Assembly (NCBI GenBank): GCA_019914945.1
Contig: CM034100.1
Span: forward strand, 10,861,096-10,925,095
Length of the DNA: 64,000 nt
Reading direction: 5' to 3'
Source: Typha latifolia
Taxonomy: Eukaryota > Streptophyta > Magnoliopsida > Poales > Typhaceae
The stretch's first letter is position 1, and every line of letters begins with the position of its first letter. Positions 4,317 to 63,118 of the stretch are shown here, piece by piece. Under the pieces are notes generated by a model, which searched no databases, was not told where the DNA came from, and worked only from the letters and a program-made list of their open reading frames with translations. A program made the position numbers and the translations under genes.

Positions 4317-5247
4317 TGATACAATCTCACCTTTAGGTGAAGGTTCAATCTATCCCGATTTTCAGATTTGGACAGGATCTGACTCGACATTTTAAAATTT
4401 GATCCCAAAAGATGCAGCCGTTGGATCGACGTAAAATTTTGATATGTTGTAGCCCTCGAAAAGCTCTTTCCAAAACATCTAGTGTCAGCTAAATCGGACG
4501 GTGGGATCTAAAGATGTCGTCTGATTAGTAGACAAACATCAAGGAGTCCGTCTTTGGATCCGTCGATGGAGGCTACAATGGGGTGGAAGGGTTATGAATG
4601 ATGATGGTGGATTAGCGACAATGGGGTGGCACCGATGAGTAAATGGAGGTGGAAGGCTAATGAATGATGGAAGGGTTAGGGCAAAGTGATAGATAGATTG
4701 GAAGAAGGGGGAGGAGTGGGCTGCCCCTAAGGGACTAGGGTGATTAGCCTGTTGAGGGAGGCTAGAAGCGGCGTTGCTAGGGAATGAGAGAACGAGAGAG
4801 AAGAAGATGAAGGAGACAAGGACAAAACTCAATTCATTCAATAATGACTCTTTGGTTGTCATCCACACCTTTAAAGGCTAATCAAACAATTCAAAAATCG
4901 CTATTATTAACCCTAAAATAGTAGATTTTCGTCGATCGCGTTCGAACGCGCCTGATCGCATCGGGCGTATTCGAACACATATTTTGCGTTCTCTGTATTT
5001 GCAAACTTGATGCAGGCGTTAACAAGCGCATTCAAACGCGCCCGATCGAGTTCGAACCCACATTTCGTGTTCTTTGTTTCTGCGAACGTGATGGAGGCGT
5101 TCACAAGCGCTTTCGAATGCACTCCATCCACGTTCGAACGCGACATACAGAAAACTTATTTTTCTATGAAATAAACACTAAAATAAAAAGATACCCCTAA
5201 TGTGTATCCATGCTCGAGACATCATCGGTGAAGTCTGAATCGTATCA
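4317..5247 (-). repeat. Family-C 5' LTR, 931 bp
   Basis: Minus-strand ends are TGATAC and GTATCA. The interior matches the C LTRs at 51281-52195 and 55600-56519. It carries TTCGAACGC-type repeats at about 4935-5140. The usual TATA box has decayed to TTTAAAGG near 4868. A primer-binding site of the TGGTATCAGAGCC type lies directly inside it. Confidence 0.8.
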
Positions 5248-5514: not shown

Positions 5515-6814
5515 TGTTAGGTTTTTATTTTTTAGCAATTGTGTACAAAATATTCTAAGTGTATTTTTTTCATATATATGAGCTTTACACAAGTCTAGAA
5601 TATCTCTGGTTTAAAGAATTGCAAGATTATTGGAGAAAAGCCGTTGAGTTCACACCGCGTTCACAAACGCGTTCAAATGGAGAATCTGCGTTTACACAGA
5701 CAGAGAGCCACGTTCACAAACGCGTTCGGACGCGGGTACTGCGTTCACACAGACAGAGAGCCGCGTTCACAAACGTGTTCGAACACGGGTACTACGTTCA
5801 CATAGATCGAGAGCTGCGTTCACAAACGCGTTCGAACACAACCTGAATAATTCAAGATGTCACGTTCGAACACACTCGGGCCCGTTCGAACGCACCTGAG
5901 ATCAAGTCATGCCGTTCGAACGCACTCGGGCCGCATTCGAACGCACTCGGGCTGCGTTCGAACGCACCAACGAAGTTTGATAAAATTGGACTTTCGTGAG
6001 TATAGATAAGACTTGGATTTGACTCTATCTTGGAGATCATATATAAGGATTATAATGCCCTATCTCTAGGGTGGTTGAAGAAGCATTATTGAAGGAGACT
6101 TCTTGAGGCTACATCGGTTCTTCAACTAACAAGGTTCCACTTATCATTAAAAAGTTAATCTTTCGTCTTAAGGGTTATCTAGACAAAAGATCAATCTCGA
6201 GAGTTACTGAGGTTGGACTTCAATCACAAGAAGCAGTAAATCGTGGGTTCTAGCGAGCAAGACTGAGAAGAACAAAGTCGTTTGGATCGACGGGTTATTT
6301 TGTGAGTCAGTCTTGTAACTGCTACTATTCTAGTGATTGGTTTTGATCCGAGTTTGGATCCGTGGTTTTTTCCCGTTTGGGTTTTTCTATGTTAAAATCT
6401 TGGCGTTCATCTCTGCTTTCGTTCTTAATATTTCTACGGACTTTTACTTAAGCGAGCGAGTGATATCATTGCCTAGTATTTAGATACATACTTCTGTTTA
6501 GGGGTTTTTCAAACCACATTGACAATCCACCCTCATCTCCATTAATATCCATAACCTTAACATCCACTCCACCCGTCACCATCACCATCATCCACACTAT
6601 ATCATAATTTCGTCCCAGTTGCAGTTCAAAACTACGAAGGACGTAAATACAAAGCAAGGAGTTGAGGATCGATTCCCATTTGAGTTTTTCCATGTTAAAA
6701 TCTTGGCGTTCATCTCTGCTTTCGTTCTTAATATTTCTACGAACGTTTACTTAAGCGAACGAGTGATATCATTGCCTAGTATTTAGATACATACTTGTGT
6801 TTAGGGGTTTTTCA
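5515..6814 (+). repeat. 5' LTR of element E, with an internal duplication
   Basis: 5515-6511 is a full LTR copy (997 bp) matching 9734-10764. It is followed by about 165 bp of family-D LTR sequence (6512 to about 6677), and then by a second copy of the last 135 bp of the E LTR (to 6814). The primer-binding site follows only the second copy. The D-like insert matches the DNA that flanks the 3' LTR at 10765-10930, so it looks copied from there. Confidence 0.85.
5645..6048 (+). promoter_or_regulatory. U3 array of TTCGAA palindromes followed by TATA box
   Basis: Tandem units of about 53 bp with GCGTTCACACAGACAGAGAG and GCGTTCACAAACGCGTTCGA blocks, then single CGTTCGAACGC boxes, ending about 65 bp before TATATAAGG (6040-6048). 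Position and composition suggest an enhancer upstream of the core promoter; no transcription data are available. Confidence 0.6.
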
Positions 6815-6879: not shown

Positions 6880-8275
6880 ATGGACGATCATCTATTAGAC
6901 CTCCTATCCTAGATGGATCAAATTATGGATATTGGAAAGCTAGGATGAGAGCTTACTAAAAGTCTATAGATGAACAAGTATGGTTTGCCGTTGTGAATTG
7001 TTGGAGTCCACCAATGTACATGGTGGATGATAAACTTGTTGATAAACTGATAGAGTCATAGGATAGGTCAGACTATGAAAAAGTTAGATGGAATAGCAAG
7101 GCAATAAATGCAATTTTTAGTTGTGTTTCCTCAAAAGAATTTAGAAGAATTTCTACTTGTGAGATAGCAAAAGAAGCTTGGACGATCTTAGAAACTACTC
7201 ACGAAGGAACTATGGCTGTAAAACTTTCTAAACTTCAGAGGTTGATTACTAGTTTTGAAACTCTACGTATGGAGGAGAATGAGACATTTGATGAGTTCTA
7301 TGCAAAGCTGAGTGATATAGTCAACTCCAGTTTTAACCTAGGAGAGAAAATTCCTGAAAATAGAATTGTCCGTAAGATCCTTAGATCTCTTCCAAAGAGG
7401 TTTCAGGCGAAAATTACAGCTATTGAGGAAAGTAAGGACATCGATTCTATGAAAGTTGAACAATTGGTAGGAAATCTACAAACATTTGAGTCCAGTCTTT
7501 CAAAATCGAGGAAGTCCAAAGGGATTGCTCTATCCACAGTTGAAGAAATTATAGAGGAGTCTGATGATGAAGGTGATTTAGATGTTGAGATGTTGGCCAT
7601 GTTCATCAAAAAGTTTTATAAATACTTTCGGAAGCCAAACAAGTTGAATGCTGAAAAACTTGAGAAAAGCAAAGTCTTTGTGAAAAAGAAGAATACTGCG
7701 AGTTTGAATATAGGTGTGAACAACAATAGTGTCAAACAGAAAAATAAGAATTCTGAGAATAAAGTTCGATGTTTTGAATGTTCTGATTTTGGACACATAG
7801 CACAAGAATGCCCTAATCGCCTTAAGAAGAAGGGTAAAGCTATGAAAGTTACTTGGGATGACTCAGATTAATCTGATGATGATTCTAGAAAAGACGAAGA
7901 AAACTTTGTTGCCTTTGCATCTTCTCTACTTAATATCGATTATATTGTTGATACTGATAGTACAAATGATCAGGATATGTTACCAGCTGAGGAAGATGAA
8001 TCTGAAATTCAAAAGGCATATAATGACCTGTACCTGGAGTCATTTAAACTCAAGAAAAGCAATCTTAGACTACTTCAACGACTCAAGGTAATCGAACTAG
8101 AAAGAATTCAATTTAAGGAGAAGTACAAATTGGAACTTGAACGTGTCAAAGACCTTTCTGAACAACTTGACAATGCAAAAAATAAAATGAAGGCTGATGA
8201 AATTGAACTAGAGCGGCTGAATAAGGAAGTGACATTTCTAAAAGGGAAGAACAAACTTGACGAGATTCTAAAGGC
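6880..8275 (+). pseudogene. Copia gag (UBN2-type) with zinc knuckle and coiled coil
   Basis: Structural protein that would package element RNA. After the ATG at 6880 the recognisable frame begins near 6897 with the LDGSNYGYWKARM motif. The UBN2-type core includes MEENETFDEFYAKLSDIVNS at about residue 115-135, followed by a CCHC zinc knuckle CFECSDFGHIAQEC (7770-7812) and an acidic tail. A long charged coiled-coil segment covers 7977-8270 and ends at KGKNKLDEIL. Three stops interrupt one frame (6957-6959, 7059-7061, 7869-7871). The homologous minus-strand copy at 35843-37183 continues past this point toward pol, so the join near 8275 marks an internal deletion. Confidence 0.85.
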
Positions 8276-8325: not shown

Positions 8326-9375
8326 ATGCCTAGAAAAGCTGCAGTTTCCAAGAAACCTAGGCCGCCTTCCTCACCTACTTCGGCTCCCAAGTTTTCGACA
8401 TCTACGGCTGCGGGGCGTTACAAACATAATTTTGGCACCCGTCCTGTTATCTGTGAATGACCCGTGGTCATTTCCAATTTTTCTTTTTTGGGGATAGAAC
8501 AGATATTTACTGAGCGAGGATGGTTATCGGTGTGTCGGATGAGCGGGACTGCTTATGTGGAAGTTGTTCAGGAATTTTTTAGTAATGCCACAGTTTTAGA
8601 CCGCTGTATACATTCTACTGTTCGTGGGGTGTCTGTATACTTGGACTTAGATGTTATTCGCGCTGAACTTCATCTTCCTGATGGTGAGTTCCAGTATCCA
8701 ACGTCTGCTCCACTTCCTGATGTCAATGAATATGCTGGCACTGTACTGATCAAAGGGGAACGTTGGAAGGGAAACATGATGCCGCATGAGAAACTGACAT
8801 CAGTGGTTCGCATGCTTCACCTGCTTTGTCTGTACAACGTCACCCCCAAGACTCACCATTCCAGTATTAGTCCTGATCGTGCCTTCCTCCTTCATGCAAT
8901 GTTATCTGGAGTCTCTGTTGATTTGACTCCGGCTATCTATGATTCGATTTTGACAGCTACATAAAAAGAAGCACCTCGTGAGGAGTTACCGTTTGGCATC
9001 TTTATTACAAATTTGTGCACTCATAGTGGGGTGCGTGTGGATGCTTCAGAACCTTCCTTTACTTCGCAAAAACCGTTGGATCGGATTACTCTTAAGCGGA
9101 GTCAAGCTCACGACCAGTCGTCTCCTCTTAAGCCATCATCTTCCGCCGCTAATTGTTCATCGCACCTCAACAGTTTTGATGATAGCTCTGACGGTGACAC
9201 ATCTCACACCGAGGGGGAGTTACCACAGTACTCTGACTGTTTCGATCAGCTTAGTACTCAAGTGCAGGATCTCCATTCGGTAGTGAATGATTTACGAGCT
9301 GAGCAAGCTCGTCAGGGGACTGTACTTGACTCTGTGTTGACGATTCTTCATCGTCAGTTTCCTCCGACTTCCTAG
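8326..9375 (+). pseudogene. Sirevirus env-like / 'putative plant transposon protein' ORF
   Basis: Starts at ATG 8326 (MPRKAAVSKKPRPPSSP) with a basic Pro/Ser-rich head. A globular region carries FTERGWLSVCRMSG and CIHSTVRGVS, and an acidic Ser-rich linker leads to a C-terminal heptad region (LSTQVQDLHSVVNDLR, about residues 305-330) that looks coiled. It resembles the extra ORF found after pol in SIRE/Maximus-type elements, often called envelope-like; its role is unknown and I see no clear signal peptide or membrane segment. In-frame stops at 8458-8460 and 8962-8964 break it. A pyrimidine-rich tract ending in CAAG lies just before the start and could be a splice acceptor. Confidence 0.7.
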
Positions 9376-9733: not shown

Positions 9734-10764
9734 TGTTAGGTTTTTATTTGTTAGCAATTGTGTACAAAATATTCTAAGTGTATTTTTTTTTATGTATATG
9801 AGCTTTACACAAGTCTATAATATCTCTGGTTTGAAGAATTGCAAGATTATTAGAGAAAAGCCGTTCAGTTCACACCGCGTTCAGAAACGTGTTCGAACGC
9901 AGAATCTGCGTTCACACAGACAGAGAGCCGCATTCACAAACGCGTTCGAACGCGGGTATTGCGTTCACACAGACAGAGAGCCACGTTCACAAACGCATTC
10001 GAATGCGGGTACTACGTTCACAAAGACAGAGAGCCGCATCCACAAACGCGTTCGAACGCGCGTACTGCGTTCACACAGATCGAGAGCTGCGTTCACAAAT
10101 GCGTTCGAACGCAACCTGGAGAATTCAAGATGTCGCGTTCAAACGCACTCGGGCCCGTTCGAACGCACTTGACATCAAGTCATGCCGTTCGAACGCACTC
10201 AGGCTGCGTTCGAACGCACCAACGAAGTTTGATAAAATTGGACTTTCGTGAGTACGGATAAGACTTGGATTTGGCTCTATCTTGGAGATCATATATAAGG
10301 ATTGTGATGCCCTATCTCTAGGGTGGTTGAAGAAGCATTATTGAAGGAGACTTCTTGAGGCTACATTGATTTTTCAACTAACAAGGTTCCACTTATCATT
10401 AAAAAGTTAATCTTTCGTCTTAAGGGTTATCTAGACGAAAGATCAATCTCGAGGGTTACTGAGGTTGGACTTCAATCACGAGAAGCAGTAAATCGTGGGT
10501 TCTAGCGAGCAAGACGGAGAAGAACAAAGTCGTTTGGATCGACGGGTTATTTTGTGAGTCAGTCTTTGTAACTGCTACTATTCTATTGATTGGTTTTGAT
10601 CCGAGTTTGGATCCGTGGTTTTTTCTCGTTTGGGTTTTTCCATGTTAAAATCTTGGCGTTCATCTCTGCTTTCGTTCTTAATATTTCTACGGACTTTTAC
10701 TTAAGCGAACGAGTGATATCATTGCCTAGTATTTAGATACATACTTGTGTCTAGGGATTTTTCA
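9734..10764 (+). repeat. 3' LTR of element E, 1031 bp
   Basis: Begins TGTTAGG directly after the polypurine tract and ends TTCA before AACCA. It differs from the first 5' LTR copy by scattered substitutions and by repeat-array length. Confidence 0.92.
9880..10300 (+). promoter_or_regulatory. 53-bp tandem repeats with GCGTTCGAACGC boxes and TATA
   Basis: Successive units start at 9908, 9961, 10014 and 10067, exactly 53 bp apart. Perfect 12-bp palindromes GCGTTCGAACGC lie at 9942-9953, 10048-10059, 10101-10112 and 10206-10217, with near-perfect ones between. TATATAAGG follows at 10292-10300. The layout parallels the C and D LTRs. Confidence 0.65.
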
Positions 10765-14640: not shown

Positions 14641-15910
14641 TTGTTGGAGCACTTCCGCCAAACTCCAGAGGCTAGCCATGAGGGTGTCTGGAGGACTTAT
14701 AGGAGGATATCTCAGAGTTGCACGTGGCCGGGATTAAGACGAGATATGAGGAATTTTGTCCGTGCTTGCGAAGTTTGTCAAAGGGCTAAGACAACCACAT
14801 TGAAATCGGCCGAATTACTATAGTCTCTACAGATACTGGATAGTGTTTGGGAAGACATTTCTATGGATTTCATAGAAGGTCTTTTGCTGGTACATCGTTA
14901 TTCCATTATTTTTGTGGTGGTTGACAGATTGAGCAAGTATGCACACTTTTCTGCATTGTCACATCCATTTTCAGCCAAGTCAATGGCTGAAATTTTTATT
15001 AGAGATGTTGCTCGGTTACATGGCATGCCATGCACGATTGTCTCAGATCGTGATCGTGTATTTATGAGTGACTTTTGGATGGAGTTTTTCATAATATAGG
15101 GGACCTGATTGAACTTCAGTTCAGCCTACCATCCACAAACGGATGGCCAAACCGAGGTGGTCAATGAAGACATTGAGCAATGCTTGATGTGCTTTGTTGG
15201 AGAGATGCCGAGACGATGGTTGGAGTTCTTACTGGTGGACGGAGTGGTCTTACAACACTGCCTACCACAGTAGCATTGAAATAACTCCCTATGAGGCGGT
15301 GTATGGGCACACGGCTCCGACATTACGCGTTTATGACCTAGTGGCATCTACAGATCGGACAGAGATGGACTTAGCTTTGATGGATAGAAATGCCACATTG
15401 AGAAGGTTGCGTACCCATCTTAAACTTTCTCAAAACCGCATGATGCGAGTTTATAAACGTAGCCATCGAGAGTAGGAGTTCGACATCGATAGTTGGGTGT
15501 TTGTGAGGGTACAACCGTATCGACAGGTTACCTTGCATCCTGATGTGACGTCCGATGTGTAACCAAAAGTTAGCACATCGCTACTTTGGTCCATTTCAGG
15601 TGTTAGAGAGTATCGATCCAATTGCATATCGTTTGGAGCTGTCGGAGGGGTCAAGAGTGCTCCTGTCTTCCATGTTTTATCGTTGAGGGAGCGGATTGGT
15701 GATCATGAGGTCGTTGGATTAGCTCTACCGGAGCCATTGGAAGAGACAGAGATCGTAGAGCTAGTTCACGTACTTGCTAGGCGCCGACGACGTCATGGTA
15801 CCAGATTAGAGATGGAGATTCTAGTTGAGTGGCTTGGCAAGCCATCCGATGAGGCTACATAGGAGTTGGAGACGGACATCTTGGAGTGTTTCCCCGACTT
15901 TACATCTTTA
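14641..15910 (+). pseudogene. Family-D integrase and chromodomain
   Basis: The HHCC zinc-binding end shows HFRQTPEASHEG and CEVCQRAK (14650-14790). The core shows MDFIEG (first Asp, 14863), IVSDRDRVF (second Asp, about 15037) and TDGQTEVVNE (Glu, about 15142). After a frameshift near 15200 the tail continues to a chromodomain, RRHGTRLEMEILVEWLGKPS (15790-15850). Stops occur at 14821, 15097 and beyond. Confidence 0.85.
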
Positions 15911-15937: not shown

Positions 15938-16667
15938 TCATACACTATGTTTGAGTCTTTTCTTATTGCATTAGTTATTTATTTTCATTAAAGTAAAATT
16001 CTTGTAGGTCGCTTGTGAACGCCTGCATTAGGTTTGCAAAAATAGAGAACGTGAAATGCATGTTCGAACGTGGTCGGGCGCGTTCGAACGCCTGCATCGC
16101 GTTCGCATCGATAGAGAATGTTTTTTGTGCGTTCTTATGCGATCAGGCGCGTTCGAATACAATCGGCGGGATTCCACTAGGATTAGGGTTAATTATTGTT
16201 TTTAGAGCTTATTGGCTAGCCTCTATAAAGATGTGGATGGCAGCCAAAATTATTATGCTATTGGAATATTGGGTTCTTACCTCTCTATCTTTTCTCTACC
16301 CTAATCTCCCTCCTCGCTCTTCACCAACCTACCACCTCTACAGTTGGCAAGGTCTCTCATAACTTCTAATCTCCTTCGTTTGTCGAGTCCTCCTTCTTCT
16401 TTGGGATCTTGACCACTTCTTCCCCTTCATCTTTATCCCTTAAGCGACATCGACAATCCACCCTCTTCTCCATTAACATCCATAACCTTAACATCCACTC
16501 CACCCGTCATCACCACTATGGATCAATTAGGGTGTTATGGATCAATTACACTTTGTTTCATAATTTTCGACTACGGGCAGAATATTTGGTAAATATTTTC
16601 CCTCGATTGCACGGGCTGCTTTCGTAATAAAATTCAGATCTTGAAGGAATTATTCCGTGACCTATCA
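15938..16667 (+). repeat. Family-D 3' LTR, 730 bp
   Basis: Begins TCATAC (from TGATAC) directly after the purine-rich GGAGAAAGCGTGGTGGGC and ends CCTATCA. The same polypurine context precedes the C 3' LTRs. Confidence 0.8.
16010..16230 (+). promoter_or_regulatory. TTCGAA palindrome cluster and TATA box in D LTR
   Basis: One perfect GCGTTCGAACGC (16080-16091) with imperfect neighbours near 16061 and 16150, followed by TATAAAG at 16224-16230. It is the sparsest of the three families. Confidence 0.55.
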
Positions 16668-24425: not shown

Positions 24426-27015
<2,590 letters not shown>

Positions 27016-27837
27016 TAATATGAACTGGGTCAGATCAGATCACATCAAAGAGAGATTGGGCTTAATGGATTGAGTCTAATTATCTTATTTGGTTATTTGG
27101 TTTAGTTAGAACATTAGTAGGTTAGGATTTTATTTAATTAGCTAAATCTAACTCTATGCAATTTCGGAAAAATATTCGCAGAATATTCTACAAACATCTG
27201 AATAATATCAAACTAGTTGCATAAAATTATCAATATTCAGATCTACAACTTTGGTATTCACAACTTCTCTTGATTTTGAATCTATCTGCGGAAAAATGAT
27301 AGGTTAATCTGAGAAGATTAGGAAGACTAGTTTAGTTTGTTTGTTAGGGTTTTAACTTATTTGTTTGGGTCCATAGGGTGAGCCTCTATAAAATGTTGAG
27401 AAAACCCTAATTGGAGGAGAATCTGATAATTGAAAATGGTATTGTGCCTTTATCTCCTTCTCTTCTTGCTCTACCCATTGGCGCCTTCTCCCACCTCCTT
27501 CCTTCCATCGCCCAAGTCTTTGGTCGACTTTCTCTAACACCTAATCCCCCTCTTCTATAACAACTTCTCCCCTTTCACACCCAGGAATTAACCTAGCACC
27601 AATCTAGCCATTGAAGGGCTATCAAGCTAGGGTTTACTTGACTTTCGGCCATTGTTTAGCCAATATGTCAAGATCTAGCCATCCAAACCCTACGATCTTG
27701 GATTCGTTGGAAAGCTGTGACAACATATCAAAAATTTAGAAAGATCCAACAGTTAGATTATCTGCAGCTATCTTCGAAAGTCACGTCCTCAATCTAGTCT
27801 AGAACTATTTCAGATCGATTAAAGCTGGTTCGTAACA
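27016..27837 (+). repeat. Family-F solo LTR, 822 bp
   Basis: Begins TAATATGAACTGGGTC, aligning with TGATACAACTCGGTC of the other F copy, and ends TTCGTAACA. The flanks AACTC and CACTC match at 4 of 5 positions. TATA-like CTATAAAA lies near 27384, followed by a CT-rich leader and the conserved GTTGGAAAGCT-type block shared with the C LTR. No internal domain. Confidence 0.7.
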
Positions 27838-28028: not shown

Positions 28029-29056
28029 TGAAAAACCCCTAGACACAAGTATGTATCTAAATACTAGGCAATGATATCACTCGTTCGCTTAAGTAAAAGT
28101 TCGTAGAAATATTAAAAATGAAAGCAGAGATGAACGCCAAGATTTTAACGTGGAAAAACCCAAACGGGAAAAAACCACGGATCCAAACTCGGATCAAAAC
28201 CAATCACTAGAATAGTAGCAGTTGCAAGACTGACTCACAAAATAACCCGTCGATCCAAACGACTTTGTTCCTCTCAGTCTTGCTCGCTAGAACCCACGAT
28301 TTACTGCTTCTTGTGATTGAAGTCTAACCTCAGTAACCCTCGAGATTGATCTTTGGTTTAGATAGCCCTTAAGACGAAAGATTAACTTTTTTAGATGAGT
28401 GGAACCTTGTTAGTTGAAGAACCGATGTAGCCTCAAGGAGTCTCCTTCAATCATGCTTCTTCAACCACCCTAGAGATAGGGCATCACAATCCTTATATAT
28501 GATCTCCAAGATAGAGCCAAATCCAAGTCTTATCTGTACTCACAAAAGTCCAATTTTTTCAAACTTCGTTGGTGCGTTCGAACGCGGCTCAGGTGCATTC
28601 GAACGGCATGACTTGATCTCAGGTGCGTTCGAACGGGCCCGAGTGCATTCGAACGTGACAACTTGAATTCTTCAGGTTGCGTTCGAACGTGTTTGTGAAT
28701 GCAACTCTCGGTGTGTGTGAACGCAGTACCCGCGTTCGAACGCGTTTGTGAACGCAGCTCTCGGTCTGTGTGAACGTAGTACCCGCGTTCGAACGTATTT
28801 ATGAACGCAGCTCTCGGTTTGTGTGAACACAAGTACCCATGTTCGAACGCGTTTGTGAATGCAACTCTCGGTCTGTGTGAACGCAGTACCCGCATTCGAA
28901 CGCATTTGTGAACGTGGTGTGAACTCAACATCTTTTCTCTAATAATTTTGCAATTATTCAAACCAGAGATATTCTAGACTTGTATAAAGCTCGTATACAA
29001 GTAAAACTACACTTAGAATATTTTGTACACAATTGCCAATAATTAAAAACCTAACA
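28029..29056 (-). repeat. 3' LTR of minus-strand E, 1028 bp
   Basis: Minus-strand start TGTTAGG at 29056, just after the purine tract (CCCCCTTTGG complement at 29061-29070), and end TTCA at 28029. It carries the 53-bp tandem array with CGTTCGAACGC boxes (about 28570-28915) and a TATATAAGG box (28491-28499, complement). Confidence 0.9.
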
Positions 29057-31135: not shown

Positions 31136-32114
31136 TGATACGATCACACCTCTGGCTATGGAGCTCTGATACCAGCTTGATACGATCTCGCCTTTTTGGT
31201 GAAGGGTCGATCTCTTCCAATTCTTGATCTGGACTAGATCTGGCATGGAACTTTGAAATAAGATCCCGAAATATGCCGCTGTCGGATCGACGTGAAACTC
31301 TGATATGTTGTAGCCCCAGAAAAGAGCTTTCCAACAAATCTAATTGCAGGCGAATCGGATGTGAGGATCTCGAGATATCGTCCGATTTGTGGACAAAGGT
31401 CAGATGGTCTATTTTGGATCCGTGGATGGAAGCACGTGATCCTAGGTAATGGTGGTTGAAGGTGGACCGGCGTTAATGTGGTGGCACCAATGAAAAGTGA
31501 TGGTGGGAGGGTTGTGGTTGATGGAAGGATTAGAGCAAGTGTTGGATAGATTGGACGAAGGGGGAGAAGAGGGCCACCCCTAAGGGACTAGGGTGATTAG
31601 CCGGACGAGGGAGGTTAAAAGCGGCGTCGCCGGGGATTGAGAGAACGGGAGGGAAGAAGACGAAGGAGGCAAGGCAAAACTCAATCTCAATAATCAATAA
31701 TCAATTTGGTTGCCTACCACATCCTTTTATAGGCTGACCAACAACTCAAATTAACCCTAAAAACACAATTTTCGTCGACCGCGTTCGAACTCGCCCGACC
31801 GCGTTCGAACGCACCGAGTTCACTCTTCTGGATTTGCGAACGCGATGCAGGCATTCGAACGCGCGATCGAACGCGCCTATCGGTATTTGCGAACGCGATG
31901 CAGGCGTTCATAGTGCGTTCGAACGCACAGTACATTCTCTTCACCACGTTCACAACCCCGTTCACAAACCGCGTTCGAACTCACTCCACCCGCGTTCGAA
32001 TACGACTTACAGAAAACTTATTTTAATGGAAATTAAACACTAAAACATGAAATAAAAACACTCCTAAAGTGAATCCATGCTCGAGACGACGTCGGTGAAA
32101 TCTGAATCGTATCA
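31136..32114 (-). repeat. Family-C LTR, 979 bp
   Basis: TGATAC...GTATCA ends, TTCGAACGC cluster at about 31780-32010 and a TATA box (complement of CCTTTTATAGG near 31726). Primer-binding-site-like TCTGATACCAGC occurs both outside and inside the inner LTR end (31124-31135 and 31164-31176). Confidence 0.85.
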
Positions 32115-33050: not shown

Positions 33051-35650
33051 AAAGGACAAATCCCTAAAGAAGTACGAAGATACTCAAATCTCTGTAAATC
33101 CAAAGGTTTTGTAAATAGATCACCCAACTATTTCTCCGTCTCAACATGTTCTAGTGCTATTGTTTTGTCTTCAACTAACTCGCGTATAAAATGATGTCGG
33201 ATATTAATATGTTTTGAACAGGATTTTTCGATATATTAATAGCACTCATGTTGTCACAATAAAGCACCATAGTATCTTGTTCAATGTCGTAATCTTTGAC
33301 CATCTGTTTCATCCATAGTAACTGAGAACAACAACTTCCCACTGTAATATACTCGGCCTCTACAGTAGATAAAGATATCGAGTTTTGTTTCTTACTGTGC
33401 CAAGCAACCAAATTGTTTCCAATATAAAAACATCCACCTGAGGTAGTTTTTCTATCATCACATGAACCTGCCCAATCAGAATCCGTGTATTCAGATATGA
33501 TAGCTCCCGAGTCATACGTAAACTAGATACCTAAGTCAACTGTGCCACCGACATATTTTATGATACATTTCACAGCAAACAAATGTGTCTCCTTAGGTTC
33601 AGACTGAAACCTAGCACACACACCGACACTAAATGCAATGTCAGGTCTACTAGCAGTTAAGTACAAAAGACTACCAATCATGCTCCTATACAGTGTCTGA
33701 TCAACACTTTTTCCTGAAATATCCTTACCTAGTTTGGTAGTTGTACTCATACGAGTTCTAACATGTTTTGCATTTTCTAAACCGAATTTAGTCACAAGAT
33801 TCTTAGCATACTTGGTTTGAGCGATAAATATATCTCTTTCCAATTGAGTAATTTGAAGTCTCAAAAAGAACTTCAACTCACCCATCATGCTCATCTCAAA
33901 ATGACTATGCATAAGATCTGCAAACTCCTTAGCTAATGATTGACTCGTTGCCCCGAAGACAATGTTATCCACATATATTTGTGCCACAACTAAATTCTTG
34001 TTCGACCGTCTAATGAAAAATGTCTTGTCCACTCCCCCTCGAGTGAACCCCGCATCCACTAAAAAAGTGGTCAACTTCTCATACCAAGCTCTTGGAGCTT
34101 GTTTTAGCCCGTAGAGGGCCTTTTTCAGTTTAAACACATGAGAAGGAAATTTTTGATCTTCGAACCCTTTCGGTTGTTCTACATAAACATCTTCATTCAG
34201 AGTACTATTCAAGAAAGCACTTTTAACATCCATTTGAAATAATTTAAATTTTAAGTGACAAGCAATAGCAAACAGTATACGAATAGATTCTAATCTAGCA
34301 ACAGGAGCAAATGTCTCATCAAAATATATACCCTCAACCTGAGTATATCCCTATGCTACGAGTCTAGCTTTATTTCGAACTATATTGCCATATTCATCAC
34401 TTTTATTCTTATAAATCCATTTTGCTCCAATGACGTTCACATTCTTAGGTCTAGGAACTAAATACCAAACATCATTCCTAGAAAAATCCTCTAATTCCTC
34501 ATGCATAGCATTAACCCAAGAATCGTCTAACAATGCTTCTTTCACATTTTTAGGTTCAAAAGAAGATGTATAACAAATAAATGATACCTCACTTTGGATT
34601 TGTCGTCTTGTCTTAATTGGTTCATTCACGTCTCCGATCACTTGTGATAGTAGATGATTTGATTTCACTCTGGCAGATGATTCCGATACATTGCAGTCAT
34701 ATTTGTTCATTTCAACTTTGTCCTCGTCCTAATTCTCAATTTTCAGATCAAGCTCTTTTCCTATTTCTTCGTCATATGTATCTGCAGAAACAGAAATAGA
34801 AGTAGCTTTAGTTAAATCAATCGTGGATTCATCTATCATGACATTAGAAGATTCCATAATAGTAGAAGTGTCAAGATTAAATACTCGTAGGCTCCTGCTA
34901 TTATTCGAATACCCTAAGAAGATGCCTTCGCTACTTCTAGTGTCAAATTTAGTCAAATATTCTTCATCACGCAAGATATAACATTTACTACCAAAAACTC
35001 AAAAATATTTAACACTAAGTTTCTTACCTTTCCAAATTTTATAAGCAGTCATTTTTGTACCTGGTCTTTGATAAATACGATTTATCACATGTACCATTGT
35101 ATTGACCGCCTCTGCCCAAAACCTAACCTTTTTAGCGTGAAGCATAACCCTAGCCATTTCCTGCACAACTCAGTTTTTTCTTTTAACAATCTCGTTCTAT
35201 TGTGGAGTTATAGGAGCTGAAAACTCATGTTGAATACCAAGAGAATCGCAAAATGTAAAAAAAATTTCATTTTCAAATTCTCTACCATGATCAGAACGAA
35301 TCCTAACTAGGGTTGTAGATTTTTCATTCTGCAATTTTAAGCATAGTGATTTAAAAACTTCAAAGGTTTGAAACTTCTCACGTAGAAAGGCAACCCAGGT
35401 ATATCTGGAGTAATCATCGATCATTAAGAATATATAGCGTTTACCTCCAAGACTTTTTGTTTTTGTTGGACCCATCAAGTCCATATGAACTAATTGAAGC
35501 ACACGGTCGGTGGAAGCTGCATTTACCTTCTTGTGTGAGATCCGAATTTGTTTTCCAATTTGACACGAACCGCACACTCTTTTTGATATTTCTTTCATCT
35601 AAGGTATTCCTCTTACCACTTCTTGTTTGGACAGAGTAAATAATTCCTTA
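33050..35650 (-). pseudogene. Copia pol: pre-integrase, integrase, RT, RNase H
   Basis: From 35598: CGSCQIGKQIRISHKKVNAA (pre-integrase zinc end), then the integrase core with HMDLMGP (first Asp), MIDDYSRYTW and RSDHGREFEN (second Asp and Glu context). RT runs from VIGAKWIYKNKSDEYGN (about 34430) through MDVKSAFLNSTLNEDVYVEQ and KALYGLKQAPRAWYEKL to YVDNIVFG, where the usual YVDD has become YVDN. RNase H shows SRPDIAFSVGV, DSDWAG, LSTVEAEYI and LYCDNMSAI. The segments share one frame, broken by stops at about 34974-35197, 34710-34729, 34348 and 33520, and by a frameshift near the end. No protease motif was found between gag and pre-integrase. Confidence 0.87.
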
Positions 35651-39787: not shown

Positions 39788-40264
39788 CTGCTTTGAACCG
39801 CCTTTCGATCAAGTATAGGCGCCACTTGCTAACAGTGTGGACCACGGCTAACATCTCTCCCTTGTACATCGACAATTGGGGTGACCATTATGAGAGGGCC
39901 TTGCTCATATAGGCTATGGGTCGCCCTTTCTGCATCAAAATAGCATTAATCCCAAACCTAGATGCGTCACACTCAACAACAAAGGTCTTGGTAAAATCTA
40001 GTAGGGCTAACATGGGAGACTCGGTCATGGCTTGCTTGAGTTCTTCAAATGTCCATTCCACTTTGTCATTCCACTCAAACCCGTTTTTGAGGAGTAGGGC
40101 AATCAATGAGGCTGCAATCTTCCTGTAGCCTTGGATGAATCAATGGTAGTAGTCGGTGAGGCCGAGGAAGCCTCGGAGCTCCTTAGGCATCTTCGGTTGT
40201 GACCAGCGCACCATGTTAGCCATCTTCGTAGGATAAACCTCCACACTTGTGGAAGAGATAAAGT
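39788..40264 (-). pseudogene. Family-G RT end and RNase H
   Basis: Shows PKELRGFLGLTDYY, IALLLKNGFEWNDKVEWTFE, FVVECDASRFGINAILMQKG (RNase H first Asp) and RPIAYMSKALS, then MYKGEMLAVVH and YLIERRF, where the B LTR cuts in. A frameshift lies near 40105 and a stop follows KALS. Confidence 0.83.
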
Positions 40265-41032
40265 TGATACAACTCGGTCGAATTGGATCCATTCGTGGCA
40301 CATTGGGTTCATTGGGATGAGCCTATTTACTTATTAATTAGTTAATTGAGTCTAGACTAGTCAATAAATTATTTTAGTTGAGTCATGAGATGCATGGTGG
40401 ACCCGAGTTCGACTCAGGCGAGTCCTTATTTAGGTCGGTCCAGGGTTAGCCTCTATAACTATGTGGAGGAAACCATAATTTGATCATAATCTAATTATTG
40501 GAGCATTATCGCCCCTATCTCTCTCTCTATAGTTGTCGGCTCTCCTTCCTCCTCCCTCCTTGCCCACCGCTCCATCACTCCATTAGTTTGGTCTCTCCTA
40601 GCTTTTAGTCCTCCTCTTCTATATCCTCTACTCCTTTAAATCTCTCTACCATCGCCCTAACCTCTACACCATCCCTAACATTCCACCACCATCATCCCTC
40701 TAGTGCCACCCTATCACTATCGACCTACCACCACCATACCTCACCTTGGAGTCCGTGCCTCCACCCACAGATCTCAAATCCTGTGCAGACTTGAATCTCA
40801 TAGGTCTGACCCTCTGACCTTTATCTACCATTTTAAAGATATCTTCTAATCTACACATCTGATTTATATGAAACTAGACTCGATGGAAAGTTCTCTCCCA
40901 GGACTACCTCATATCAAAATTTCATATTGATCTAATAGCTAGATCCTCCGAAATATCTCTATAAAGTTTCATATAAATTCTATCCAGAACTAGTTGCGAG
41001 ATGATCAAACTTTTTGAGGGGAGATCGTAACA
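40265..41032 (+). repeat. Family-F solo LTR, 768 bp, in G RT
   Basis: Begins TGATACAACTCGG and ends GATCGTAACA. Flanks AAAGT (40260-40264) and TAAGT (41033-41037) match at 4 of 5. Removing it rejoins the RT segment VEYLGH...VEVYPTK. It contains a CTATAA box near 40456, a CT-rich leader and a GATGGAAAG block shared with C LTRs. Confidence 0.8.
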
Positions 41033-51280: not shown

Positions 51281-52195
51281 TAATACGATTCGGACTTCAC
51301 CGACGTCGTCTCGAGCATGGATTCACTTTAGGAGTGTTTTTATTTCATGTTTTAGTGTTTAATTTCCATTAAAATAAGTTTTCTGTAAGTCACGTTCGAA
51401 CGCGGGTGGAGTGAGTTCGAACGCGGTTTGTGAACGGGGTTGTGAACGTGGAGAAGAGAATGTACTGTGCGTTCGAACGCCTGCATCGAGTTCGCAAATA
51501 CCGACAGGCGCGTTCGATCACACGTTCGAACGCCTGCATCGCGTTCGCAAATCCAGAAGAGCTAATTCGGTGCGTTCGAACGCGGTCGGGCGAGTTCGAA
51601 CGCGGTCAGCAAAAATTGTGTTTTAGGGTTAATGTGAGTTGTTGGTTAGCCTATAAAACGATGTGTAGGGCAACCAAAATGGGTATTGATTATTGAGATT
51701 GAGTTTTGCCTTGCCTCCTTCGTCTTCTTCGCTCCCGTTCTCTCAATCCCCGGCGACGCCGCTTCTAACCTCCCTTGTCCGGCTAATCACCCTAGTCCCT
51801 TAGGGGTGGCCCTCTTCTCCCCCTTCGTCCAATCTATCCAACACTTGCCCTAATCCTTCCATCAACCACAACCGTTCCACCATCACTTTTCACCGGTGCC
51901 ACCACATTAACGTCGGTCCACCACCATCCACCATTACCTAGGATATCGTGCCTCCATCCACGAATCCAAAACAAAGCATCCTGATGTTTGTCCACTAAAC
52001 GAACGATACCTTGAGATCCCCAACTCCGATTCGCCTGTAACTAGATTTGTTGGAAAGCTCTTTTACGAGGCTACAACATATCGAAATATCACGTCGATCC
52101 GACGACTGCATATTTCGGGATCTAATTTCAAAGTTCCGTGCCTGATCGTAACAAGCTGGTATCAGAGCCTTAGCCCCAAAGAGAAGATCGTATCA
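51281..52195 (+). repeat. 5' LTR of plus-strand C, 915 bp
   Basis: Starts TAATAC (3' copy TGATAC) and ends GTATCA. It is nearly identical to the 3' LTR outside the palindrome array, where small insertions and deletions occur. The last 45 bp contain an extra primer-binding-site copy. Confidence 0.93.
51393..51658 (+). promoter_or_regulatory. GCGTTCGAACGC palindrome array and TATA box, 5' LTR of C
   Basis: About six GTTCGAACGC boxes in 215 bp (perfect 12-mers at 51469-51480 and 51572-51583), with GCGTTCGCAAAT spacers, then TATAAAA at 51652-51658. The array is placed as an upstream enhancer of the LTR promoter would be. It is CpG-rich and so a likely methylation target. Confidence 0.65.
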
Positions 52196-52198
52196 ATC

Positions 52199-52211
52199 TG
52201 GTATCAGAGCC
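52199..52211 (+). other. Primer-binding site, initiator-Met tRNA type
   Basis: TGGTATCAGAGCC, 3 bp after the LTR end. The same 13-mer occurs at 52157-52169 inside the LTR and at 56480-56492 in the 3' LTR. Confidence 0.9.
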
Positions 52212-52236
52212 ACCATTCCTCGGACAAGCGCTTCCA

Positions 52237-55200
52237 ATGACGACAACCAGATCCATGGCTGCACGGCGAGATGATGAAGAAGAGATTCTCCCAATAGAGG
52301 AGGGAGAAACGATTGCAAGGACTTCCACCCATGGAACCGCCCGATCTAATCAGAATACGGAAGAACCTAGCGTTCAAGCCATGTTGGGGTCTATTTCAGA
52401 GCAATTGGCCATCAACAACCAGATGATGATGGAGATGATGCGGGAACTACGGGCGAACGGGAAAGCACCATCGACCCCAAGACGCGAGTCCACCCCCTTG
52501 AACCCACCGCCACCGGTTCAGCCTTTGCAACCACAAGAGCCGTTGCTACCACCACCCTATGGGCAGAGACAAGCAAGGATGGTTACACCAGGTCCAGTTG
52601 CAGGTGAACCCATCCGACGGGTGAACCACTATGGAGACCGCCTTGGAGATCAAGATCCGTTGGCGGGTCAATACGATCCGGAACCACAACAAGTTAATCA
52701 AAACCAAAGGAGGGATCATCAACCCTTCTTGATGCATCCTCCCCCGGTTAGACAAGGACATGATCCGGAATGAGACAATGGCATCCGTGGACAAGTCGTG
52801 CGTCTCGAATTCCCCAAGTTCAAAGGTGGCGACCCGATTGATTGGTTGTATAGGGTCTCGAATTCCTTTGCATACCAAGGAACGGCAGAAGAGTTCAAGG
52901 TGACGCTTGCGAGCTTCCACCTTAAGGATGCGGCGCTTCATTGGTTTCGAGCAGCCAATGCCACTGAGGCTATCGAAACTTGGGCTGAATTTTGCGCCGA
53001 TATCACACGGCAATTTGGAGCATCGGGATATGAAGACTTTGATGCTCTCCTCTCAAAGACGGTGCAAAAGACCACGGTTGGGTCATACCAAGAAGAATTT
53101 GAGAAGATTAGTACCTGATGTCATCCACCATGGACGGATCAGCAACTTCGCAGCACCTTCATCTCCGGATTGCAAGGTGACATACAAGCCGATGTGAGGG
53201 CTTTAAGGCCTAGAACTTTAAAGGAGGCCTTCGAAGATGCGGTGCTTATGGAAGACAAACATAGGGCCATGAATATACACTTGAAACAGAGTTGGATGAG
53301 CCAAGGAAGCCGCAATCAAGCTCAACCAAACATAGCGGCGGGAAATACTATTGGAGTACCAAGGGTTGCTGCTACAGTGGTACCTCCTCGAGCACCCTTG
53401 AAGCCATCCCAAGATGTGAAGTATGCACCTAGAGGTCCGGGACGAGCACTCACACCAGCCCAAGTAGAAGAAAGAAGAGCCAAGGGCCTAAGCTTCCGTT
53501 GTGATGAAAAGTTTGTACCCGGGCATCGCTGCGCTAAACCGATGGGATCGGTGATGCTAATCGATGGATTGGAGGAAGCGGAGGACGAGTTTGCAGCTGA
53601 AGGTGGAGGTGTGGCTGGACATCAAGGAGAAGAAACTGAGGAGCAACCCGTGGAGGATATGATAGCTGAAATCTCCCTCCACGCCTATTCGGGGACAGCT
53701 GCGCCAAAAACCTTGCGGGTAAACGGGGTAGTCAAGAAAACCACAATGAGAATCTTGATTGACACCGGATCCACCCACAACTTCATTGACAAGAGGCTCC
53801 TTAGGAAGATTAGGCTCGAGTCGGAACCCACGGAAGGGTTCGATGTGACGATCGGAGATGGCACCGCATTGCGAGCGGATTCTATTTGTGGAGGTGTGGA
53901 ATTGAAGGTGCAAGGCCAAACTTTCACATTGGATCTTTATCCGTTGGCCTTGCAAGGTGCCGATATTGTTTTGGGGACCCAATGGCTTCGAAGCTTGGGG
54001 CCCGTGACATTTGATTTTACAAGCCTCACATTGACATTTTGGAGAAAAGACAAGAGAGTGCTGCTAGATGGAAGCCAACCGCTACTTGAACTTCCAAATG
54101 AAGGGGTCGCAAGGGAGCTCGCTTCTTTCTCGGCGCCCACCGTTCCTTTCTTCTCAGATCTGCGGAAAGCTAGTGCAGAGGATAGTGAGCTGGTCCAACT
54201 CATGGAGGAGTTGAGAGAGAACCCCTCAACCCACCCCGAGCACGAGGAGCGCGATGGGTTAGTACTAGAGTGCGGGCGAATCAAGGTACCCCGGAACGAA
54301 GAGCTACGGAGACTATTGATGGCACACTTCCATGATACTCCTATAGCAGGGCATGAAGGGGTATTACGTACCTACAAGCGGCTGGCCCAGAACTGTACAT
54401 GGACAACGATGAAGACGGACGTGAAGAAGTATGTGCGTGAATGTCAAATCTGCCAACGAGTCAAATCGGAGGCACTCAAGCCTAGCGGGCTGCTACAACC
54501 ACTACCTATACCATAGCGTATTTGGGAGGATATCTCCATGGACTTTATCGAGGGGCTGCCGGAGGTTCGGGGACAATCGGTGGTGTTGGTTGTGGTGGAT
54601 AGACTGAGCAAATATGCTCATTTCATAATATTGTCTCACCCGTTTTCAGCAAAAAGGGTTGCTGAAATTTTTGTTCGGGAAGTGGCACGCTTGCATGGGA
54701 TGCCTAGGACGATCGTGTCAGATCGAGATCGCATCTTCATCAGTGAATTTTGGTCCGAGTTCTTCAGATTGCAAGGGACTCAAATCAACCTGAGTTCAGC
54801 TTATCACCCCGAGACAGATGGCCAAACCGAGGTGGTGAATCGTGGACTGGAGCAATACTTGCGATGCTTTGTGGCGGAACGACCAAGGAATTGGGTCAAA
54901 TTCCTTCCATGGGTTGAGTGGTCATACAATATGGCTCATCACTCTAGCATCGGCATGGCCCCCTTTGAGGCGGTTTATGGGCGCACTCCCCCTGTCTTGC
55001 GTGCCTATGATAGACTCGCGGCGGCGGATAGGACCGAGCTTGACTTGGAGCTTGCTGATCGAGATGAAACATTGAGACTGCTCAAGACTCACCTAGCCAC
55101 AGCCCAAAACCGCATGAAGCAAACTCATGACAAAGGCCGACGTGAGCGAGAATTTGAGGTGGATCAATTGGTGTTCGTTCGAGCTCAACCGTATCAGCAA

Positions 55201-55572
55201 TCCACATTGAGACCAATTTTGAACCAAAAGTTGGGTTACAAGTACTACGGTCCGTACTGAGTGCTACAACGAATCGGTCCAGTAGCTTACCGGTTGGACC
55301 TACCTGAAGGAACCAGGATACATCCGGTCTTCCATGTATCAGCATTGAAGGCCCAGATCGGGCCTAACCAGGTGGTGGGTTCGGCCTTACCCGAACTAAT
55401 GAAGGAGGATGGCCCCACTGAACCGGTCTGAGTATTAGACCGTAGGAGAAGACGCCATGGGACCAGATTAGAGACGGAAGTGCTAATTGAGTGGCTGGGC
55501 AAATCTACTAACGAGTCTACCTGGGAGCTAGAGTCAGATATCATGGATCGCTTTCCAAACTTCAAACCTTGA
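52237..55572 (+). pseudogene. C-family gag-protease-integrase-chromodomain frame, RT/RNase H deleted
   Basis: One frame of 1,112 codons from ATG 52237 with no frameshift. gag: acidic N-terminus, MMMEMMRELR, Pro-rich segment, LEFPKFKGGDPIDWLYRVSN and LKEAFEDAVLMEDKH. Knuckle: FRCDEKFVPGHRCAK (53512-53540). Protease: ILIDTGSTHNFIDKRLLRKI (53752-53811). After TLTFWRKDKRVLLDG and LELPN it passes directly to SFSAPTVPFFSDLRKA, a segment that follows RNase H in the minus-strand copy, then the integrase HHCC (HFHDT..GHEG, CQICQRVK), MDFIEG, IVSDRDRIF and TDGQTEVVNR, and the chromodomain VLIEWLGKSTNESTWELE. Premature stops: 52771, 53116, 54514, 55258, 55429 (TGA or TAG). Confidence 0.92.
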
Positions 55573-55599
55573 GGACAAGGTTGCGGAAGCGTGGTGGAT
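55573..55599 (+). other. Polypurine tract region of C
   Basis: Purine-rich GGACAAGG and GCGGAAGCGTGGTGGAT immediately before the 3' LTR. The same string precedes the minus-strand C 3' LTR (58256-58285, complement). Confidence 0.7.
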
Positions 55600-56519
55600 T
55601 GATACGATTCGGACTTCACCGACGTCATCTCGAGCATGGATTCACTTTAGGAGTGTTTTTATTTCATGTTTTAGTGTTTAATTTCCATTAAAATAAGTTT
55701 TCTGTAAGTCGCGTTCGAACGCGGGTGGAGTGAGTTCGAACGCGGTTTGTGAACGGGGTTGTGAACGTGGAGAAGAGAATGTACTGTGCGTTCGAACGCG
55801 GTGCGTTCGAACGCACTGTGAACGCCTGCATCGCGTTCGCAAATACCGACAGGCGCGTTCGATCACGCGTTCGAATGCCTACATCGCGTTCGCAAATCCA
55901 GAAGAGCTAATTCGGTACGTTCGAACGTGGTCGGCGAAAATTGTGTTTTAGGGTTAATGTGAGTTGTTGGTTAGCCTATAAAAGGATGTGTAGGGCAACC
56001 AAAATGGGTATTGATTATTGAGATTGAGTTTTGCCTTGCCTCCTTCGTCTTCTTCGCTCCCGTTCTCTCAATCCCCGGCGACGCCGCTTCTAACCTCCCT
56101 CGTCCGGCTAATCACCCTAGTCCCTTAGGGGTGGCCCTCTTCTCCCCCTTCGTCCAATCTATCCAACACTTGCCCTAATCCTTCCATCAACCACAACCGT
56201 TCCACCATCACTTTTCACCGGTGCCACCACATTAACGCCGGTCCACCACCATCCACCATTACCTAGGATCTCGTGCCCCATCCACGAATCTAAAACAGAG
56301 CATCCTGACGTTCGTCCACTAAACGAACGATATCTCGAGATCCCCAACTCCGATTCGCCTGTAACTAGATTTGTTGGAAAGCTCTTTTACGAGGCTACAA
56401 CATATAGAAATCTCACGTCGATCCGACGACAGCATATTTCGGAATCTAATTTCAAAGTTCCGTGCCTGATCGTAACAAGCTGGTATCAGAGCCTTAGCCC
56501 CAAAGAGAAGATCGTATCA
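55600..56519 (+). repeat. 3' LTR of plus-strand C, 920 bp
   Basis: TGATAC...GTATCA ends, followed by GCAAC. It carries the palindrome array (perfect copies at 55711-55722, 55788-55799 and 55803-55814) and TATAAAA at 55977-55983. Confidence 0.93.
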
Positions 56520-57350: not shown

Positions 57351-58255
57351 TAGTACGATCTTCCCTTTTTGGGCCAAGGCTCGATCTATTCCGATTTTCA
57401 GATTTGGACAGGATCTGATACGAAACTTTAAAAATTAATCCAAAATGATGCCATCGTCGGATGGATGTGAGATTTTGATATGTCATAGCTCTAGAAAAGA
57501 TATTTCTAACAAATCAATTTTAGGCGAATCGGATGTAGGGATATCGAGATATCGTCCAATTAGTGGATGAACATTAGGGGTCTGTCTTAGGATCCGTGGA
57601 TGGAGGCACGAGATCCTATTCCCTAGTTGATTGTGGATGGTGGTGGACCGGCGTTAATGGGGTGGCACTGGAGAATAAGTAATGGTGGAAGGGTTATGGG
57701 TGATGGAATGGTAAGGGCAAGTGTTGGATAGATTGGAAGATGGGGGAGGAGTGGGCCGCCCCTAAGAGACTAGGGTGATTGGCCGATCGAGGGAAGCTAG
57801 AAGCGGTGTCGCCGGGAATCAGGGGACCGGGAGCGAAGAAGACGAAGGAGATAAGGCAAAAACTCAATTCATCAATAATGACTCCATGGTTGCCATCCAT
57901 ACCTTTAGAGGCTAACCAAACAATTCAAAATAACCCTAAATAATACATTTTAATCGACCGCGTTCGAACACGCCCGATCGCGTTTGAATGCACATATTTC
58001 TCACTTCTCTGGATTTGCAAACGTGATGTAGGCGTTCGCAGCGCGTTCAAACGCACAATTCGCAATCTCTGGATGTGCGAACCTAATATAGGCATTCACA
58101 AGCGCGTTCGAACGCACTCCACCCGCGTTCGAACGCGACATACAGAAAACATATTATTATTATTATTGTAGAATTAAACACTAAAACAAGAAACAAAGAC
58201 ACTCCTAAAATGTACCCATGCTCGAGACGACATCGGTGAAGTCCGAATTGTATGA
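57351..58255 (-). repeat. 3' LTR of minus-strand C, 905 bp
   Basis: Minus-strand start TCATACAATTCGG (decayed TGATACGATTCGG) at 58255 and end near TAGTACGATC at 57351. TTCGAACGC boxes lie at about 57957-58135. The TATA position reads CTCTAAAGG. More diverged than the plus-strand C LTRs. Confidence 0.82.
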
Positions 58256-62377: not shown

Positions 62378-63118
62378 TGATACAATCTTGATACAATCTC
62401 CCCTTTTTGGGCCAAGGCTCGATCTATTCCGATTTTCAAATATGGACAAGATCTAACACGGAACTTTGAAAATAGATCTCAAATGATGCCGTTGTCAGAT
62501 GGATGTGAGATTTTGATATGTTGTAGCTCGGAAAATAGCTTTCCAACAAATCAAGTTTTAAGCAAATCGGATATAGGGATCTCGAGATATCATTCAATTA
62601 GTGGACGAACGTCAGGGGATCTGTCTTAGGATCCGTGGATGGAGGCACGAGATCCTAGATGATGGTGGATGGTGGTGGACCGACGTTAATGGGGTGGCAC
62701 CGGTGAATAAGTGGTGGTGGAAGGGTTATGGGTGATGGAAGGGTTAGGACAAGTGTTGGATAGATTGGAAAAAGGGGGAGGAGTGGGTCGCCCTAAGGGA
62801 CTAGGGTGATTGGCCGGTCGAGGGAGGCTAGAAGCGATGTCGCCGGGGATCGAGAGAACGGGAGCAAAGAAGACAAAGGAGACAAGGCAAAAACTCAATT
62901 CATCAATAATGACTATGGTTGCCATCCATACCTTTAGAGGCTAACCAAACAATTCAAAATAACCCTAAATAGTACATTTTCGCCGACCATGTTCGAACGC
63001 GCCCGATCACATTTAAACGCACATATTTCTCACTTCTCTGGATTTGAGAACGTGATGCAGGCATTCGCAGTGCATTCAAACGCGGCGTTTGCAAGGCGTT
63101 CGAACGCGGCATTCGTAG
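62378..63118 (-). repeat. Truncated 5' LTR of minus-strand C
   Basis: Same layout as the other C LTRs from the palindrome cluster (62985-63115) to the inner end, where TGATACAATCT is repeated twice (62378 and 62389). The first ~130 bp (U3 start) are missing. Confidence 0.78.

Follow-up and report, generated by a model that had tools for sequence, protein, structure and literature searches.

In the LTR retrotransposons of Typha latifolia, some Ty1/copia and gypsy-type arrays of a 12-bp palindrome are alike beyond the palindrome itself, up to an exact 21-mer, while the remainder of their LTRs is dissimilar, an observation which is new here. With modest confidence, the arrays are read as a promoter-proximal U3 module of sites for a dimeric host factor, gained in a modular fashion, the copia E and gypsy-type versions of which would have one origin through exchange. 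Within this reading, it is inferred that a protein binds the sites and activates transcription, that this factor belongs to the host, and by which route the exchange took place.

Palindrome arrays and their position relative to the TATA box

The window, i.e., the whole 64-kb stretch of DNA that was analysed, contains 45 sites of GCGTTCGAACGC at up to one mismatch, 19 of which are exact, against an expectation from dinucleotide shuffles of 0.02 sites (up to one mismatch, maximum 1). All 45 fall inside ten LTR arrays of about 2.6 kb in total, the limits of which were set after the hits were known, and the remaining ~61 kb contain none at this threshold. This is in line with the preliminary description, which had reported the palindrome as clustered in LTRs and had named its density in non-LTR sequence as a check. 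At up to three mismatches, 69 of the 78 window sites lay within arrays, letter shuffles of the whole window giving 13 on average. Over the assembly searched (214 Mb, 62 contigs), exact GCGTTCGAACGC was found 14,944 times and the reversed word was never found. Among the 17,294 occurrences of the GCGNNCGNNCGC class, GCGTTCGAACGC represented 86%, the other 255 words together reaching 2,350. Chance as the source of the motif is ruled out by these window and genome-wide counts.

The ten arrays belong to six C-type, one D and three E LTRs, and are given below with the TATA box of the C 5' LTR.

51392..51603, + strand: palindrome array in the 5' LTR (51283-about 52145) of gypsy element C, six sites at up to one mismatch
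51652..51658, + strand: TATA box of the C 5' LTR, read from the sequence, 48 bp past the last palindrome
55711..55928, + strand: array in the 3' LTR of the C element 51283-56519 (motif sites, self-comparison)
4938..5141, - strand: array in a C-type LTR (motif sites, self-comparison)
31781..32003, - strand: array in a C-type LTR within the right-hand E element (by self-comparison)
57960..58136, - strand: array in a C-type LTR (motif sites)
62989..63107, - strand: weak and short array in a C-type LTR (motif sites)
16060..16160, + strand: array of the gypsy D LTR, followed by TATA near 16224 (motif sites)
5669..5965, + strand: array of the left E (copia) LTR, including a 53-bp tandem unit
9889..10217, + strand: array in the right LTR of the left-hand E element, TATA at about 10292
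28574..28903, - strand: array in an E LTR

The arrays announced for C were thus recovered, in six array-bearing LTRs instead of five. The D cluster described at 16010-16160 is present too, but with a single site at up to one mismatch (16080), the others being weaker. At up to three mismatches, the successive spacings in the array at 51392..51603 are 21, 56, 41, 12, 50 and 20. Between 5248 and 16666, the E copia (5515 to about 10900) is apparently nested within a D gypsy LTR, the parts of which match 16181-16443 and 16529-16666. The window also includes a perfect (AG) dinucleotide run of 97.5 units at 25220-25414.

Position relative to the promoter was determined in 30 C and 30 E copies picked by similarity to the window LTRs, a choice which biases them to complete arrays. 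The last palindrome lies 74 bp from the TATA box in 28 of the 30 E copies (13 bp in one, no TATA in another), 48 bp from it in 28 of the 30 C copies (68 bp in the other two), and 63 bp from it, by eye, in the D LTR of the window. At 15 other loci, a TATA box was found within 200 bp in nine cases: one each at 31, 51 and 88 bp and three each at 63 and 74 bp, giving a range of 31-88 bp. These values correct the distance of roughly 25-75 bp before the TATA box that had been given earlier for C, D and E. The array itself was present in all 30 fetched E LTRs, a point raised earlier for E LTRs elsewhere in the genome; this sample is non-random, its members, one of which is the window's own, having been retrieved as similar to an E LTR of the window with the array included. 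One trait of U3 enhancer arrays, a short site that recurs within U3 ahead of the TATA box, is present.

Within arrays, the palindromes are frequently paired. Genome-wide, 5,084 GTTCGAAC pairs were counted at a start-to-start spacing of 19-21 bp and 587 at 12-18 bp, corresponding to ~1,695 and 84 pairs per spacing, respectively; the 19-21 bp spacing is frequent in this comparison, which is against 12-18 bp only. E arrays also have spacings of 30, 34 and 53 bp, and helical phasing across all spacings was dropped as an explanation since spacings of 30, 34 and 53-56 bp are also common. Copy number differs among these tandem arrays. The tandem unit is 53 or 55 bp long in the copia E types, and a block of about 70-83 bp is duplicated, by eye, in several gypsy-type LTRs.

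This architecture also bears on a role at the RNA level, in which U3 palindromes in the genomic RNA would drive dimerisation or hairpin formation. Retroviral RNAs are known to dimerise via palindromes, and the 12-mer is perfectly self-complementary and repeated several times. However, the arrays are TATA-proximal, the common pair spacing of 19-21 bp fits DNA helical geometry, and a search of the whole window against Rfam at gathering thresholds gave no match, which makes such a role very improbable.

Element classes and LTR groups

E elements belong to Ty1/copia, as indicated by matches to copia-type reverse transcriptase and gag profiles.

33523..34347, - strand: copia reverse transcriptase fragment (PF07727 RVT_2, E 3.7e-54), given to the right-hand E element by position
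7062..7868, + strand: copia-type gag of the left E element (PF14223, E 1.4e-25)

The E gag is 81% identical to a Typha angustifolia protein over 51% of the query. An ORF of the E element downstream of the gag region (8461-8964) matched PF20167 (Transposase_32, putative plant transposon protein; E 8.7e-23). Membership of E in the SIRE lineage of copia is suggested by a single feature, the polypurine-like string before the LTR, which we take to be a mark of that lineage.

C-type copies are Ty3/gypsy, with matches to RVT_1, rve (integrase core) and H2C2. In the C copy at 51283-56519, protease, H2C2 and integrase core were found in ORFs and no reverse transcriptase match was found between them; this element looks internally deleted. 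D is also Ty3/gypsy, RVT_1 (13300-13620) being followed by rve (14824-15096, below its cut-off), and this succession of reverse transcriptase before integrase is the order by which Ty3/gypsy is recognised. G is likewise assigned to Ty3/gypsy, from an RVT_1 match below its cut-off backed by tblastn at 52%. No coding domain was found beside the F LTR L070 in the stretch searched (L080), and F is counted as gypsy-type from weak LTR similarity only (z 0.1-5.8 to C and D), its LTRs downstream of the array reaching z 3.0-5.8 to D and 0.1-2.7 to C.

Beyond the window, genome searches with two window LTRs gave, among the matches listed, contigs C1 to C15. A sample was drawn from C1, consisting of 17 of the first 18 motif clusters (L001, L003, L004 and L065-L078; one near 7.434 Mb was left out). 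At 16 of these 17 places the motif formed an array of at least three palindromes (up to two mismatches), L067 having a single site and no array. The C1 loci were considered LTRs from their context and from their resemblance to one another or to LTRs of the window. On this basis, L003, L004, L065, L073 and L074 are copia E types, L001, L068-L071 and L075-L078 are gypsy-type (C/D/I, F, G), and L066 and L072 represent a third LTR type, H. CTCTGT-type words were seen in the gypsy-type arrays of L076, L001 and L070, and presumably resemble the motif of the plant demethylase REF6.

In the LTR part that follows the array, E, E2 and E3 cluster together (z 58-179), C, D and I form one group (z 7-148), and the two H LTRs, L066 and L072, go together (z 24); G and F are tied more weakly to D (z 3.0-5.8), G reaching 9.4 to I. 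As a further correction, C and D are related to each other in this region (z 7.4 and 12.6) and both are gypsy. Hence, the independent comparison is gypsy versus copia.

H LTRs gave z>4 in three of 14 pairs with gypsy-type LTRs, a weak similarity, and in none of six pairs with copia LTRs. The sequence beside L072 was without any retroelement protein match. The neighbouring stretch L079 (C1:5376700-5380199) is host-gene-like by eye, which makes L072 a candidate solo LTR located within a gene or close to one. A query with H returned 253 candidates, of which 40 were scored and four further copies were fetched. These copies, 73-75% identical to L072, contain 3, 1, 0 and 1 palindromes at two mismatches and, in the same order, 5, 2, 6 and 5 at three mismatches.

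Sequence common to copia and gypsy-type arrays

Similarity between arrays was scored after masking the palindromes, against first-order Markov resamples. Under these conditions, five of the 18 copia versus gypsy-type array pairs exceeded z 4, two of the 12 with C, D or G (5.5 and 6.0) and three of the six with F (up to 11.5). In the remaining LTR, none of the same 18 pairs exceeded this value (mean z -0.1), and the highest score downstream of the array was 2.4 over 21 copia versus gypsy-type pairs. These values agree with the earlier statement that the two superfamilies have no common LTR ancestry.

The longest common sequence is the 21-mer ACGTTCGCACATACAGAGAAC, exact in the copia L003 (E3) and the gypsy L071 (D) and located outside the palindromes. 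The match continues past the 21-mer, 27 of 29 letters being identical, and in both arrays the TTCGAA core that follows is in register. Downstream of their arrays the two LTRs are of their own types, L003 being E-type (z 64 to E, 58 to E2) and L071 D-type (z 148). A second word, the 17-mer GTTCRCAMAKACAGAGA, has 2,597 exact copies genome-wide, the reversed control having none. At up to two mismatches it was found in 9/9 copia, 13/19 gypsy-type and 0/2 H arrays, these counts being post hoc as the word was defined from the very sequences compared. In addition, the linker TCGGGC occurs in the same register in both copia E and gypsy-type arrays. For E, the 8-bp linker of the 20-bp pairs is ACTCGGGC; for C/D it is GATCGGGC or GGTCGGGC, other variants also occurring. 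The composite P-NNTCGGGC-P, where P is the palindrome, was found 439 times genome-wide, the 100 occurrences listed including ACTCGGGC, as in copia, along with GATCGGGC and GGTCGGGC, as in gypsy.

The preliminary description had left convergent capture and exchange between superfamilies side by side. For copia E and gypsy-type arrays, the 21-mer, the 17-mer and the common register of TCGGGC make the balance lean toward exchange or common origin, although this is clear in five of the 18 pairs only. From these sequence comparisons, the module was probably swapped between copia and gypsy at least once. Against a shared origin, 13 of the 18 array pairs would speak through their lack of any z>4, as would the strongest scores, which come from F, a weakly gypsy group.

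These results have to be weighed against pure convergence, in which each superfamily would have captured and multiplied the sites of one host factor complex, the 17-mer and TCGGGC being parts of a composite site. Much of the extra similarity between copia and gypsy arrays is indeed centred on half-sites. In a 300-shuffle test with palindromes masked, seven of 17 copia versus gypsy-type pairs beat all shuffles, and when the half-sites were masked too, one of 17 did so and five of 17 had p below 0.02. The H arrays point the same way, since their palindrome pairs, at 19 or 20-21 bp, have other linkers than the copia and gypsy-type ones and the 17-mer is found in neither array. Two of six copia-H array pairs exceeded z 4 (4.2 and 4.0), against none of 12 gypsy-H array pairs; in the remaining LTR, one of 12 gypsy-H pairs was above z 4 and another was at 4.0. 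The H palindromes look more like an independent capture, with the reservation of the weak similarity of H to gypsy-type LTRs (three of 14 pairs). Independent gain of heat-responsive elements by several COPIA families offers a precedent (PMC5059998). Nevertheless, an exact 21-mer within 27/29 identical letters, with the core in register, exceeds the needs of a simple dimer site, and convergence throughout is considered a serious rival, though the less likely reading.

Two promoters of the window, which match family F from their TATA region downstream, show no array in the upstream stretches covered and provide a further comparison.

27374..27630, + strand: gypsy-type LTR promoter and R/U5, array-less, TATA about 27387, 79% to L001 over 262 bp
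40442..40483, + strand: second gypsy-type promoter, array-less, TATA about 40454, 90% to L001 over 42 bp

The first is related to the F LTR of L001 (z 74.8) and to C (z 6.1), and no 12-mer at up to four mismatches was found in the ~480 bp at 26900-27380. The second scored z 18.5 and 7.7, respectively, and the ~200 bp at 40250-40454 were likewise devoid of the 12-mer at up to four mismatches. F- and C-related promoters thus occur without palindromes upstream, which indicates that the array was gained or lost apart from the promoter.

Taken as a whole, the preferred reading, a module exchanged between copia E and gypsy-type LTRs, would work as follows. A symmetric, probably homodimeric host DNA-binding protein would recognise nCGTTCGAACGn, often as palindrome pairs with a spacing of 19-21 bp (some two turns of the helix), and would aid the start of transcription at a TATA box located mostly 31-88 bp downstream. 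Copies of the motif would multiply by tandem duplication (unit of 53/55 bp in copia E, block of ~70-83 bp in gypsy-type), and the module would be gained and lost separately from the remaining LTR. The copia E and gypsy-type modules would share one origin through exchange between the superfamilies, either at the DNA level or by template switching.

Conservation, known systems and significance

Evidence for selection on the palindromes is mixed. In the 30 C and 30 E copies, mismatch was 0.002-0.046 at the core TT/AA and 0.044-0.201 at the three outer positions, the first T of the C copies being as variable as the outermost base. Variants present in at least two copies were absent from core A/T cells (0/2,008), against 202/23,356 outside the array and 57/4,884 in spacers; alignment cells are non-independent and such counts overstate the signal. 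By column, shared variants were found in 0/67 core A/T columns versus 38/780 outside (p=0.065) and 10/163 in spacers (p=0.037). Private variants amounted to 5/2,008 in core A/T cells versus 107/23,356 outside (p=0.22) and 34/4,884 in spacers (p=0.022). Relative to the outside, a lack of shared variants with no clear reduction of private ones is what constraint acting on transposing lineages, and not on resident copies, would give; the contrast with spacers does not tell the two apart. Among more diverged LTRs, no excess conservation of the non-CpG palindrome positions over the rest of the LTR was found, either in six diverged C-type LTRs (0.836 vs 0.835) or in seven E types (0.861 vs 0.891); these positions were above the array spacers (0.797 in C-type, 0.770 in E types).

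The lack of better conservation among diverged copies, the tandem arrays of varying copy number and the existence of related LTRs devoid of them would all suit a satellite-like passenger sequence of LTRs, neutral, without function and dispersed by recombination. Such a sequence accounts poorly for the TATA-proximal position in several families, for the frequent pair spacing and for a core that varies little, nor does it readily explain the remnants in the older H copies. Hence, we regard neutrality as unlikely.

Nothing in the resident copies points to durable protection against methylation-linked decay, since the CpGs of the palindromes decay much as those elsewhere in the LTR do. Indeed, CpG transitions in C were 3.2% in palindromes, 3.6% outside and 2.4% in spacers, and in E 8.4, 9.2 and 11.1%, respectively.

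Several known systems were compared with these arrays. The Tnt1 BII boxes and similar U3 activators are tandem repeats next to the promoter of one family. The present arrays are likewise a tandem U3 element by a promoter, but differ in sequence and are not confined to one family. Compared with ordinary plant Ty1/copia and Ty3/gypsy elements, the coding domains are alike and the U3 module in common is unlike. Three identities were rejected. The heat-shock element has the consensus nTTCnnGAAn / nGAAnnTTCn, and the core TTCGAA is without the 2-bp gap between TTC and GAA. The tRNA B box (GWTCRANNC), and with it a pol III promoter, does not fit GTTCGAACG, the ninth base of which is G instead of C on either strand. 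The VOZ/NAC palindrome is GCGTN7ACGC, and the gap here is N4 (GCGT-TCGA-ACGC).

In open-licence full texts, mostly represented by their title or the start of their abstract, no use of TTCGAAC, CGTTCGAACG or the TTCGAA palindrome as an LTR motif was recognised. At the matching passages of two texts, TTCGAA simply opens a longer senescence box (PMC4385054) and TTCGAAC is confined to a Silene satellite probe (PMC3212565). Likewise, no report of a U3 module common to copia and gypsy was found in the open-licence literature, again mostly as titles or abstract openings. According to PMC5059998, heat-responsive elements of ONSEN and other COPIA LTRs are clustered sites of several independent origins bound by a host factor, and an over-representation of GYPSY elements responsive to heat is also mentioned for A. 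thaliana. The Typha arrays resemble these COPIA LTRs in that clustered short LTR sites recur across families; they differ in that the families analysed in that article are COPIA, whereas here copia and gypsy are both concerned and have extra sequence in common.

The closest likeness outside LTRs is with VANC targets, where, according to PMC5735166, a short motif tandemly multiplied in non-coding VANDAL sequence is bound by an anti-silencing protein encoded by the transposon. By analogy, the Typha arrays could be targets of a sequence-specific anti-silencing or silencing factor, acting on methylation and not as a classical enhancer. A dense tandem short motif in non-coding transposon sequence is common to both systems, and the Typha motif contains three CpGs. 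However, the VANC targets are VANDAL-bound and the VANC21 motif is described in that article as rare in other transposons, whereas the present motif is shared by unlike LTRs of two superfamilies, beside TATA. This placement, together with palindrome CpG decay that resembles decay elsewhere, argues against a methylation factor, and there is little likelihood of such a role.

A broader proposal, put forward tentatively, is that a promoter module was exchanged between Ty1/copia and Ty3/gypsy while H captured the palindrome independently, so that a large share of the LTRs in this genome may be under the control of a single host regulator. To look for such a factor, the 12-mer can serve directly as bait, and the array-less relatives are natural controls. 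If one host factor drives many LTR families, removal of the factor or of its sites would be a direct test of how transposon bursts start. Besides, if the regulatory exchange between copia and gypsy is true, LTR promoters evolve partly as interchangeable cassettes.
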